From: a virus
DNA: 23,340 bases
IMG/VR virus record: IMGVR_UViG_3300043470_000086
Coordinates: 1-23,340 of that record
Strand: one strand, 5' to 3'
Shown here: positions 18,340 through 21,882 of the stretch, piece after piece
Layout: the number at the start of each line of letters is the position of its first letter
Position numbering within the stretch: position 1 is the first letter of the stretch
Made by a program: the position numbers and the translations under genes
Notes under the pieces: model-generated
What the model was told of the DNA's origin: nothing
The model's database searches: none
Seen by the model: the letters and a program-made list of their open reading frames with translations, nothing else

Positions 18340-21300
18340 ATGGATATTAGAGATATATTAAAATCATTCGACCAATTAACCGAAGGTGATTCAACTGTTC
18401 ACAAAGCAGGTCCAGGTGGATATGGTAATAGACATGGCACAGACGATGTTACTGATCAATATGGTAAACCAATTGGTCGTACAAGTTTAGCTAAAATGAA
18501 TGATGCACCTGCTGTTAAGCGTGGCAAAGGTCGTCCCCCAAAGAACGCAGATTCTTCGGGTGAAGTTAAATCATATGACAGTTCAGCACTAAGCAAAGCA
18601 ATGGGAATGGGTAAAGCACCTAACCCAAAAGGAAAGCCTAGTGTCAAGCATAGTCTTAAAGAATACTTTGATCAAATGGACGGCGCTTTAAGTGAAGCAG
18701 GTTTAGCAGTGCAGCCAATGCCAGCCACACCGGCAGTAAAGGCGCAACAGCAGATGGCAACAAAGCCATCTTTTATGATTAAAGATCCGGCTAACCCTAA
18801 TATGCCGGCAATCACTACACAAGATCCAGCAGTAGTACAAGCAGCTAAGAATGGCACAATGTCAATGCAGAAGCCAGGCGCAGCTCCAGGTGCTACACCA
18901 GCAGCAGGCGCAGGTTCACAAGTTAAGCCAATGGGAGAAGGCGGAGATGTTGGTAAGCATAACAATGCTACTACAGGGTTTGATGCATTAGTTCGTAAAT
19001 TGACACCCAAGTACGGTAAAGAAGCTGCTACAAAAATTGCAGGCTCACAATTAAAGAAAATGAAGATGCATGAATCACAAGGTGTGGCGGAAGCAGCAAA
19101 ATGGCGCTCTAATCCAGATGCATACGATACAATTCAAAGAAATTTTGATACTGATCCCGATCGGCCGGTAAAAGTTTCTAAAGGCGACGTTGGTCGTAAT
19201 ACGTTAGAAAAACATTGGCATTTTGATGCCCCACTGACCGCGAGAAGTAGATCGTCGATAATGACAAAACTGGGAATAAAAGCTCAAGCCGGGAAACATG
19301 GTCCTAAAGGGGTGTTGCCAGAGCAAGGTATGGCGGAAGGCGTTAACGATGACGCAATGGCTGGTCTACAAAAGACAATAGATTTTGCCAAACAACACGG
19401 ATATAAAATTTACAGATCACCAACTGGTAGAAAAATGAGATTTGTGAATAAAACCATAGACCATGAAATTCGTGCCAGGGTAGACAATGACGGTGATAGT
19501 ATCAATGTAAACTATATGGATATGACTAATGGTACTAGTGGTAATGATGACGCATCATATTTTGATGAAACATTCAAAAGAGCCTACAATGAAGCACTAA
19601 GTGATTACGAATATAGAATGGATGACCAAGAAGAAAGGACAGGTATGAAGGAAGCAGAAGCACCACAACACTTTGCTCAATCAAGTCCACTAAGCAGTAA
19701 TAATCGCGGTGTATTAGAAGGCAAGAAGGGTGTTAACCCTTCTGCTAAGAAAGAAGAAACTGACAAAAAGAAATGCCCACCAATGTCACATGTTAAAAAA
19801 ATGTGTCAAGATGGAAAGTCTATGGCAGAAATTTGCAAAATGCATCCTGATTGCGATCAGAAGGAATTGAAACAAATGGTAGCTGATTGTAAAAAGAAAT
19901 TATCAGAGGGTGCAAAGCCAGACTTCTTAGATTTAGACAAAGACGGAAATAAGAAAGAGCCAATGAAAAAAGCTGCTGCCGATAAGAGTAAAGGTGCAGC
20001 ACCTAAGAAAGGTGTAAATCCTTTCGCTAAAAAGAAAGTAAAAGAAGGTATGGAACATAATTTACAAGCAGCGAGACTTCAAGGTAAAAGTCATGCACTA
20101 AGAAAAATGCCATACAATTGCACAAATGATGATATGGAAGAAGCACGTTGCTATCATGATGGCTTCAAAGAAGGCTTAGATGAGTGCTATGGTCAAATGC
20201 CAATATTAGGTCGTACAAGCGTTGGTGAAATGGGACAAGGTCCCGAAGTAGCTACTATGGCTAGTTATGGTGCTGATGACATGGGCGAAGCAATGTATGA
20301 TGAAGGTAATGCTTTCACTGCCGGTCTTGCTAAAACACCACACGGTGGTAAGTTTAAAGTAGGTGGAAGTTCATTTACTGACAACTCAAGATATGATTCA
20401 AATTTAGATGAATTTGCTTTTGAAGCATTAGATAAACAATTAAATGCTATACTTGAAGATAAAAAAGTATCAGAAGGTATGACAGTTTCAATCAGTAAAG
20501 GTCAACAAGGATCACCTGATTCAGTAAGTGTATCAGCACAAGACGGTGAAGCAGATCAATTGTTATCTATCATCAAATCAGCAGGTATGGGATTGTTTGG
20601 TGGTGATGAACAAAATGGTTATGGCGCACCACAAGGCTCAGCAGGCGCACATGGTGGTATCAATGTAGTTGATGACCATGATGGTATGATGGCATTGATG
20701 AAGAAATTATCTGGTAACGGAGAGATGCAAGGTGGCGGCGACTATGAAGATGAAGAAGGCTCTGGTGAAGAAGGTCATATGCACGGTGAAGAAGAAACAT
20801 GTGAGTCATGTGGCGGTATGATGGAAGAGAATCATCAATGTGAGTCTGATGAACAATCAGTTATGGGTGAAGATGAATCAGAAGATCAAATGGCTTATGA
20901 AGTTGCTGAAACAAATGCTCCAGATTCCGGTGCTGATAACACTAATGCTGATGTTGCAGGTAATGCAGCAGCTAATAGCGCATTAGCAACAGCAGATGCA
21001 GGGGCAGACGAAGAAGAAGGTAAAATATATTCAAGCCCGACCGAAGGTATGGAAGATACTACCGGTGAAGAAGCCGGCACAGACGCATTAGATGAAGAAG
21101 GTTATTACAAAGATCCAGATGGTGACGAAGATTCGGCCGAAGATAAAGCAGATAAAGCTGATCATGAAAGACGCAGCCGAGAAGAAGAAAAATTAGATGA
21201 AGCTGAAGATGAAACTGGTCAACTTGATGAAATTTCACAAGAACTAGCAGTAAAAACTTTAGGTAAACGTAGAGCGCATGGTATGGATGGATGGGGATAT

Positions 21301-21882
21301 GATGATGCACATCGCAAAGCAGATGCTACTGAAAAACGAGTAGAAAAAAAGTTTGGCAAAGATGCAGTTGCTGCTGCTGATAAGATTACTGATAAAGAAT
21401 TATACGGCGACCGTAAAATGAAGGAAGAAACAGTAGCAGAATCTTTCGCTAATCTTTACAAGAAATTGGCATTCTTATCAGAAGAATCAACTAGTGAGAA
21501 AGATGCCAAAGCAGAAAAAGCAGGTAAGAAAGTTGCCAAAGATATTGAATATGACGAAGGTCATAAGGGCAAAGATGACAACAAGGCAGAAAAAGCCGGT
21601 AAGAAAGTTACCAAAGACATAGAGTATGATGACAAGAAAGACAAGAAAGACAAGAAAGTAGATGAATCATATGCTAACAGCGCAGATGATACGTTTGAAG
21701 CTGACATTGACTTTATGACTAAAGTTATCACTGGTGGATTGAATAAACAAAAATCTACTGGTCAAACAACTATCCCAGTCATTGCAGGTCAACGGAATCG
21801 CATGGGTGCTGATGGATTAGGTAGCCCAATGAAAGAGTCAACAGATTTGTTAAAAGACTATATGAAATTAAGCGGTCTATAA
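18340..21882 (+). CDS. Giant modular acidic protein, probable prohead core / internal polyprotein
   Basis: An 1180-residue, low-complexity, charged protein with no membrane segment. The N-terminus MDIRDILKSFDQLTEGD looks like a capsid-targeting leader with L13-T14-E15 before G16. Similar [L/V/M]-x-E-[G/A] sites recur at 117-120, 249-252, 331-334, 458-461, 521-524, 567-570 and 710-713 and separate differing modules. These include a compact 80-residue unit (252-330), a second alpha/beta unit (334-440), a Cys-rich helical unit (about 477-517), a DLDKDGNKKEP unit (530-540) and a zinc-knuckle-like C821/C824/H832/C834. The C-terminal third is strongly acidic and ends with a 25-residue tandem repeat and the helix STDLLKDYMKLSGL. 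It would suit a scaffold core or a set of internal peptides cut out during head maturation. No named T4 homologue is recognised. AAGGA precedes ATG; a terminator follows. Confidence 0.6.
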   Translation: MDIRDILKSFDQLTEGDSTVHKAGPGGYGNRHGTDDVTDQYGKPIGRTSLAKMNDAPAVKRGKGRPPKNADSSGEVKSYDSSALSKAMGMGKAPNPKGKPSVKHSLKEYFDQMDGALSEAGLAVQPMPATPAVKAQQQMATKPSFMIKDPANPNMPAITTQDPAVVQAAKNGTMSMQKPGAAPGATPAAGAGSQVKPMGEGGDVGKHNNATTGFDALVRKLTPKYGKEAATKIAGSQLKKMKMHESQGVAEAAKWRSNPDAYDTIQRNFDTDPDRPVKVSKGDVGRNTLEKHWHFDAPLTARSRSSIMTKLGIKAQAGKHGPKGVLPEQGMAEGVNDDAMAGLQKTIDFAKQHGYKIYRSPTGRKMRFVNKTIDHEIRARVDNDGDSINVNYMDMTNGTSGNDDASYFDETFKRAYNEALSDYEYRMDDQEERTGMKEAEAPQHFAQSSPLSSNNRGVLEGKKGVNPSAKKEETDKKKCPPMSHVKKMCQDGKSMAEICKMHPDCDQKELKQMVADCKKKLSEGAKPDFLDLDKDGNKKEPMKKAAADKSKGAAPKKGVNPFAKKKVKEGMEHNLQAARLQGKSHALRKMPYNCTNDDMEEARCYHDGFKEGLDECYGQMPILGRTSVGEMGQGPEVATMASYGADDMGEAMYDEGNAFTAGLAKTPHGGKFKVGGSSFTDNSRYDSNLDEFAFEALDKQLNAILEDKKVSEGMTVSISKGQQGSPDSVSVSAQDGEADQLLSIIKSAGMGLFGGDEQNGYGAPQGSAGAHGGINVVDDHDGMMALMKKLSGNGEMQGGGDYEDEEGSGEEGHMHGEEETCESCGGMMEENHQCESDEQSVMGEDESEDQMAYEVAETNAPDSGADNTNADVAGNAAANSALATADAGADEEEGKIYSSPTEGMEDTTGEEAGTDALDEEGYYKDPDGDEDSAEDKADKADHERRSREEEKLDEAEDETGQLDEISQELAVKTLGKRRAHGMDGWGYDDAHRKADATEKRVEKKFGKDAVAAADKITDKELYGDRKMKEETVAESFANLYKKLAFLSEESTSEKDAKAEKAGKKVAKDIEYDEGHKGKDDNKAEKAGKKVTKDIEYDDKKDKKDKKVDESYANSADDTFEADIDFMTKVITGGLNKQKSTGQTTIPVIAGQRNRMGADGLGSPMKESTDLLKDYMKLSGL
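19081..19341 (+). repeat. Module flanked by imperfect direct repeats (QGVAEA / QGMAEG)
   Basis: The stretches CAAGGTGTGGCGGAAG (from 19078) and CAAGGTATGGCGGAAG (from 19324) are direct repeats with one mismatch. They encode QGVAEA and QGMAEG 82 residues apart and bracket a distinct compact module. A third, weaker copy (GGTATGAAGGAAGC) lies near 19641, after the next module. The pattern suggests insertion of cassettes at a recurring join. Confidence 0.6.
21511..21660 (+). repeat. 75-base coding tandem repeat
   Basis: Two copies of a 25-codon unit start at 21511 and 21586. Both encode AEKAGKKV[A/T]KDIEYD followed by a Lys/Asp/Gly-rich spacer. Third positions differ between the copies, so the duplication is not recent or the protein repeat is under selection. 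It lies near the C-terminus of the 1180-residue protein. Confidence 0.75.

Follow-up and report, generated by a model that had tools for sequence, protein, structure and literature searches.

A cassette-built protein of a T4-like giant phage with the features of a head-targeted prohead-protease substrate

The window analysed here is a linear viral fragment of 23,340 bp (IMG/VR record IMGVR_UViG_3300043470_000086), and its subject is the gene of P0001, a protein of 1180 residues rich in motifs that resemble cutting sites of a prohead protease (Table 1). The co-directional genes on the 5' side encode tail proteins (a sheath and two tube proteins), a head-closure protein and a pair of small proteins, and P0001 adjoins the tail-tube and head-closure genes. 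The 209-residue protein upstream gave a weak match to phrog_14802 (virion structural, E 0.0043). By comparison of the sheath, the nearest isolates are Agrobacterium phage Atu_ph07 and the Pseudomonas PA5oct group; the source is therefore a T4-like giant phage. From about position 21960 only the start of a collagen-like fibre gene is present in the window, and in the related locus L009 a collagen-like (GATGATG) fibre gene of 2858 residues lies 3' of the polyprotein gene (L009:12961-21537). No relative of P0001 was found among isolate phages at E 1e-5, and a relaxed search returned one common stretch of only 16 to 25 residues (E 0.2 to 8). The sole PHROG match is weak (phrog_24078, residues 416-575, E 1.2e-6).

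Table 1. Features of the window. All site positions are putative, with the slash marking the predicted cut; fractions give the homologues that keep a site.
Feature	Coordinates	Strand	Remark
Head-closure (TnsA-like) protein	16743..17180	+	phrog_218; 46% to PA5oct EST35_0200, E 1.2e-49
209-aa protein 5' of P0001	17700..18329	+	31% to PA5oct EST35_0202, E 2.5e-9
P0001, cassette-built protein, 1180 aa	18340..21882	+	27 homologous loci
N-terminal leader MDIRDILKSFDQLTE/, resembling a capsid-targeting sequence	18340..18384	+	residues 1-15; ends at LTE/G
Site LTE/G (13)	18376..18387	+	kept 14/14
Internal leader-like stretch SLKEYFDQMDGALSE/	18652..18696	+	end site kept 13/14
Site LSE/A (117)	18688..18699	+	kept 13/14
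Site MGE/G (198)	18931..18942	+	kept 4/14
Site MHE/S (243)	19066..19077	+	cassette site; kept 3/4 aligned
Site VAE/A (249)	19084..19095	+	cassette site; kept 3/3 aligned
Cassette, residues 252-333	19093..19338	+	whole in L001-L003 only; absent from L004
17-base string CARGGTRTGGCGGAAGG (encodes QGMAEG)	19324..19340	+	one copy in window
DNA block of cassette 334-438	19325..19647	+	98.1% DNA identity over 323 bp, unrelated gene in L039
Site MAE/G (331)	19330..19341	+	cassette site; kept 1/4 aligned
Site MKE/A (436)	19645..19656	+	kept 14/14
Site VLE/G (458)	19711..19722	+	kept 11/12 aligned
Cys-containing helical cassette, residues 461-523	19720..19908	+	only well-predicted part of model
Site LSE/G (521)	19900..19911	+	cassette site; kept 3/4 aligned
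Site VKE/G (567)	20038..20049	+	kept 13/14
Site MEE/A (599)	20134..20145	+	kept 14/14
Site MGE/A (648)	20281..20292	+	kept 8/13 aligned
Site VSE/G (710)	20467..20478	+	kept 14/14
Site LDE/A (952)	21193..21204	+	cassette site; kept 2/2 aligned
GQLDEISQELAVKT cassette	21209..21426	+	93% DNA identity over 218 bp, different gene, L042/L044
Site VAE/S (1032)	21433..21444	+	kept 12/12 aligned
Site VDE/S (1107)	21658..21669	+	kept 10/13 aligned
Site MKE/S (1164)	21829..21840	+	kept 12/12 aligned

The initial annotation had listed eight protease-like motifs in P0001: LTEG at residue 13, LSEA at 117, VAEA at 249, MAEG at 331, VLEG at 458, LSEG at 521, VKEG at 567 and VSEG at 710. All eight are exact and stand where they were placed; the list was incomplete, with the motifs at 198, 436, 599, 648 and 952 matching as well. 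The resulting 13 occurrences of [LVM]xE[GA] compare with 2.7 expected, and the wider motif [LIVM]xE[GAS] occurs 17 times against 4.2. Neither count was reached in 5000 composition shuffles, and the reversed sequence of P0001 holds three sites. Split between the sites, the chain gives 18 pieces, the shortest of 6 and the longest of 242 residues, the latter bearing a net charge of -53. Residues 1-15 have the form of a T4-type capsid-targeting sequence (CTS), a leader of about 10-20 residues that ends in a cut site. The early suggestion of such a leader at the first site held up, all 14 homologues having L[TSN]E[GAS] at the end of the leader. The internal leader-like stretch further along contains a helix at 107-116 in a low-confidence model.

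Proteins homologous to P0001 are encoded at 27 loci, with intact open reading frames (ORFs) of 845 to 1238 residues. Ten backbone sites are kept across most of the 14 homologues compared, and P3 and P2 (the residues two and one before the Glu at P1) vary within the rule; at site 436, MKEA, MSEA, IKEA and VAEA are all found. Poorly kept are the sites at 198 and 648, and cassette sites appear and disappear together with their cassettes. The expectation that homologues would retain the sites and change the modules between them was thus confirmed. Outside the cassettes L001, L002 and L004 are 96–99% identical; in L002 a further cassette of 79 residues separates VLE/ from E[SG]KKGVNP, and L004 lacks about 195 residues. 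Cassettes with a helix-turn-helix-like sequence, judged by eye only, were noticed in the L012 (KIIKLYNQGLSDDEIAEQLGIDSYDVKSVL) and L014 proteins.

The position of the insertions was evaluated for 18 of the 27 family proteins (duplicates L011, L017 and L018 and six short fragments were excluded), which gave 31 unique insertions from 84 raw ones. Thirty of the 62 insertion ends lie within 5 residues of a site compared with 10.2 under the null model, and none of 4000 rotations reached 30; nine of the 31 insertions are bordered by sites on both sides (0.95 expected). No enrichment was seen in the controls with a non-hydrophobic P3 (11 vs. 11.1) or with P1 changed to D, K or Q/N/S/T; [LIVM]xE ahead of other residues was also enriched (18 vs. 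8.2). These values bear out the statement that the sites mark borders between regions.

Cassettes are common to different genes and phages, and the finding is in this respect wider than initially stated. The DNA block of cassette 334-438 recurs in L039 within a 922-residue protein of a different kind, where the match covers P0001 residues 330-436. Its flanks are unrelated on both sides, and the identity starts in the GMAEG codons and stops in the GM-x-E codons. The GQLDEISQELAVKT cassette is carried by a 931-residue protein in L042 and L044, and L044 shares one 171,004-bp contig with the P0001 homologue L011. A third cassette, not present in P0001, was seen at 13 loci with differing gene contexts, GVAE/G and LPE/ forming its frame. 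The last part of cassette 252-333 (KGVLPE) likewise recurs in other genes. A widely shared cassette named QGDF gave no match among isolate phages, and no relative of family A1 was found in genome_contigs.

The DNA string CARGGTRTGGCGGAAGG, encoding QG[VM]AEG, was found in at least 120 stretches of viral contigs. Of the six frames, that of QG[VM]AEG is longest in 157 of 159 matches, with a median of 562 codons vs. 72 for the best other frame. At GVAEG-type sites the P2 Ala is encoded by GCG in 14 of 36 cases vs. 4% overall; the other site positions show varied codons. Of 124 string-bearing ORFs, 76 have a closed 5' end, and 41 of these 76 proteins carry hydrophobic-x-E at residues 4-22, compared to 6.6 expected from shuffling and to 76 of 468 other ORFs (out of 1141). 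In 150 string-bearing or related proteins [LIVM]xE[GAS] reaches 3.2 times the expectation and the version with a non-hydrophobic P3 0.80 times. Edges of homology between such proteins (150 of 170 proteins; 801 of 1568 raw boundaries) lie within 6 residues of a site in 301 of 801 cases vs. 104.8 expected, and in 186 vs. 77.0 if GxAEG sites are excluded; the control with a non-hydrophobic P3 rises mildly (143 vs. 99.5). A site at each end is seen in 27 of 95 unique shared blocks (5.3 expected). Pfam domains in this class, surveyed in 61 of 114 string-bearing ORFs, include GNAT acetyltransferases, GH19, dCMP deaminase, ParB_N, SutA RNA polymerase-binding and NT5C, the majority of members having none of them. 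The C-terminal module (CYYKVKSRYKVWPSAYASGALVQCRKKGAKNWG) of the protein at L120:2-4711 is found again in 365 records of isolate phages, almost all of them marine cyanophages, and the Bellamy and P-SSM2 proteins hosting it have a weak site excess only.

T4 gp21 is described in the accessible text of PMC9026906 as cleaving after L/I-x-E. Since strict T4 motifs are barely enriched in P0001 ([LI]xE[GAS] 4 vs. 1.9, p 0.12), its excess consists chiefly of V and M at P3. This could have undermined the idea of a prohead-protease substrate, and the rule was therefore measured in the scaffold protein gp22 of nine related phages. There L (48 observed, 8.0 expected), I (22, 3.6), V (29, 6.4) and M (13, 2.1) are each enriched 4–6 fold at P3, with no enrichment of A (6, 7.6) or F (0, 2.8); V/M-x-E sites would thus suit the protease of these phages. 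Eleven proteins of the P0001 family gave V 62 (11.5 expected), M 65 (10.9), L 32 (12.3) and I 9 (6.7), and P1' is enriched for A, G and S in both groups. Full-length P0001 orthologues have 13–16 sites vs. about 4 expected and gp22 has 14–16 vs. 2.1–2.7; gp21 also shows an excess, which was not seen in sheath and portal. A role in the tail or neck, conceivable from the gene position, was rejected because P0001 follows the site rule of core proteins and because sheath, tube, portal and head-completion proteins show no excess of V, M or I at P3, although L (30, 10.9) and A (34, 14.9) are raised in them.

A protease of family S77 is encoded on the 229,851-bp contig of the relative that holds L009 (E 1.4e-29), grouped with portal, a gp22-like protein and gp23. 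The 23,340-bp window contains no S77 protease, and the other 13 of the 14 contigs and fragments searched gave no match. Among 16 large string-bearing contigs S77 was found in six, and gp23 in the same six. On the contig of L009, a separate gp22-like protein of 366 residues is located between gp21 (S77) and gp23 (L030). P0001, which lies elsewhere, is therefore not gp22, and that identity was rejected. In gp23 of this relative, ...KKQLLAE precedes the conserved shell sequence, which we take, from what is known of T4, to be the maturation site. Next to the portal gene, L030:4938-8963 encodes a protein of 1341 residues with a long (APS/AA) repeat tract.

Virion data exist for proteins of cultured relatives. 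PA5oct EST35_0206, recorded as a virion protein detected by electrospray ionization tandem mass spectrometry (ESI-MS/MS), is a relative of the cassette-bearing backbone that occurs in L044, L038, L049 and others (E as low as 1.6e-26). PA5oct retains the gene order of the window, and the position of P0001 is occupied by EST35_0203, also detected by ESI-MS/MS, with the leader MFNINDILRLAGVQAVKE/S and five sites vs. 1.85 expected (p 0.035). EST35_0205 of the same phage (L187 13974-15422), an MS-detected structural protein, begins with MKLFEVFTLYEDK, a short leader-like start. For cyanophage S-SCSM1, the available portion of PMC9602691 lists 45 phage proteins, including an NMNAT, detected in virions by MS. 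The S-SCSM1 virion proteins ORF91 (NMNAT), ORF89 and ORF92 have leaders such as MKSFLQFLKE/A, that of ORF91, and MDSKTFNSLSE/A, and the peptide DFLDLDKDGNKKEPMKKA is common to S-SCSM1 and P0001. The site excess is weaker there than in P0001 (ORF89 5 vs. 1.0; ORF92 4 vs. 1.7, p 0.088).

P0001 is predicted to be mostly disordered. A helical cassette at about 480-520 is modelled with confidence (predicted local distance difference test, pLDDT, about 85), and 340-430 and 960-1020 reach partial confidence. The model of the QGDF cassette (mean pLDDT 66) consists of a helix, five strands and a helix at pLDDT of about 80, followed by a disordered tail; a fold search against PDB and BFVD at E up to 0.001 gave no match.

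Taken together, these observations are in keeping with a prohead-protease substrate that is targeted to the head and assembled from cassettes. We consider it probable that P0001 is a head-targeted polyprotein which is cut by the prohead protease, with some cassettes being delivered to the host and exchanged between genes and phages. The N-terminal leader would bring the long chain into the prohead core, where up to 17 hydrophobic-x-Glu sites would be cleaved after the Glu by a T4-type S77 protease, which would yield up to 18 pieces. Acidic and Lys-rich pieces would probably serve as core filler, many of them exiting, and at least some folded cassettes may remain with the DNA and reach the host. 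Cassettes are acquired, lost and swapped among genes and phages, with crossovers within site codons, so that every exchange would preserve a legal cutting site. The initial proposal of a head polyprotein thus stands as regards the gp22-like site rule, the persisting sites, the leader site and the protease in a relative; its likening of P0001 to gp22 was wrong in one respect, as the relative has a gp22 of its own.

Established parts of this interpretation are the sites together with their conservation and rule, the exchange of cassettes, and the protease in the genome of a relative; cutting, packaging, delivery and a function of any cassette are what we infer. Several points weigh against it. 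The strict T4 rule [LI]xE is only weakly enriched in P0001 (12 vs. 6.9, p 0.039), and a Pfam search at E 0.1 gave no match. The full-length model is poor (mean pLDDT 38.9), so most pieces may be without a fold. Sites also occur inside shared blocks, 41 compared to 17.4 by shuffling. BLAST detects no similarity between EST35_0203 and P0001 or its homologues; the correspondence lies only in position, leader and sites. Finally, the fragments of T4 core proteins mostly exit the head, according to the part of PMC9026906 at hand.

Several known systems resemble P0001 in part. T4 internal proteins are diverse cargo behind a conserved leader with a prohead-protease site at its end, as the accessible sections of PMC9026906 and PMC3012670 describe. 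Similar to IPI-IPIII and Alt with their CTS, P0001 has a short N-terminal leader ending in such a site; these internal proteins are, however, single small proteins with one leader cut each, in contrast to a chain of up to 17 sites with exchangeable cassettes. The T4 core proteins gp22, gp67 and gp68 are cleaved by gp21 into many fragments (PMC9026906, same sections). P0001 follows the identical site rule as gp22 of the phages studied here, whereas in gp22, which the relative encodes as a gene of its own, no exchangeable cassettes were observed. Head proteins of phiKZ and SPN3US receive several cuts per protein after x-x-E; in the available text of PMC10052503 and PMC5694885 these cuts remove N-terminal propeptides from one mature protein, with S/A/G or A at P3, unlike the L/I/V/M at P3 and the sites along the entire chain of P0001. 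Polyvalent proteins (Iyer et al. 2017) are long and multidomain with strong domain mosaicism, are thought to be packaged and injected, and themselves contain catalytic and peptidase domains (PMC5512222, in the part accessible). P0001, in contrast, shows none of the at least two known catalytic or conflict domains per chain that define this class, and its sites fit a separate phage protease. No report of a comparable system was found in searches of the open-licence PMC literature, a scope that leaves aside subscription papers and preprints.

Alternatively, P0001 could be an accessory core or scaffold protein that is cut like T4 gp22, gp67 and gp68, with all pieces exiting and the cassettes acting as filler material that determines core mass or head size and has no role in the host. 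The predicted disorder, the highly charged 242-residue piece, the site rule shared with gp22 of the same phages, the lack of a Pfam enzyme domain and the mostly exiting core peptides of T4 (PMC9026906, in part) agree with this. We nevertheless regard it as unlikely, since cassettes have conserved folded parts and 93–98% DNA identity across genes, and sister proteins bear GNAT, dCMP deaminase, SutA RNA polymerase-binding and ParB domains. Less plausible still is a multidomain virion protein that stays whole, the motif being an uncut recombination linker and the repeated string serving only homologous exchange. The GCG bias at P2 Ala does indicate a recurrent DNA string, yet most sites vary in their codons and P2 residue while retaining P3 and P1, the rule is the one found for gp22, leaders terminate in sites of this kind, and boundaries match sites even without those of GxAEG type. 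That a Glu- and Gly-rich disordered protein yields the motifs by chance is hardly credible and was rejected: although P0001 is Glu-rich and xxE[GAS] with a non-hydrophobic P3 is likewise frequent (216 sites in the insertion-test set), this version falls below expectation in the wider class and the shuffles never reached the counts.

From its head, T4 injects a small number of defence-blocking proteins. The cassettes common to genes of other phages suggest that these phages build and swap packaged cargo as cut-to-size cassettes. In a bolder form, for which we see a fair way less than an even chance, T4-like giant phages would possess a common pool of cargo cassettes framed by protease sites and swapped among several CTS-led or backbone-attached head genes through recombination in the string that encodes the cutting site. 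A single polyprotein gene would then give rise to a rapidly variable set of injected mini-proteins; this would amount to an arming of virions akin to exon shuffling, the head protease taking care of the splicing. Should dozens of interchangeable mini-proteins from cut polyproteins be loaded by giant phages, this would account for a large class of proteins that lack annotation in uncultured phages, and hydrophobic-x-Glu-small would offer a simple rule to read the borders of the pieces. What such phages inject would become directly testable through peptidomics in cultured relatives such as PA5oct, and the cassettes would be a source of candidate factors for anti-defence and host takeover.

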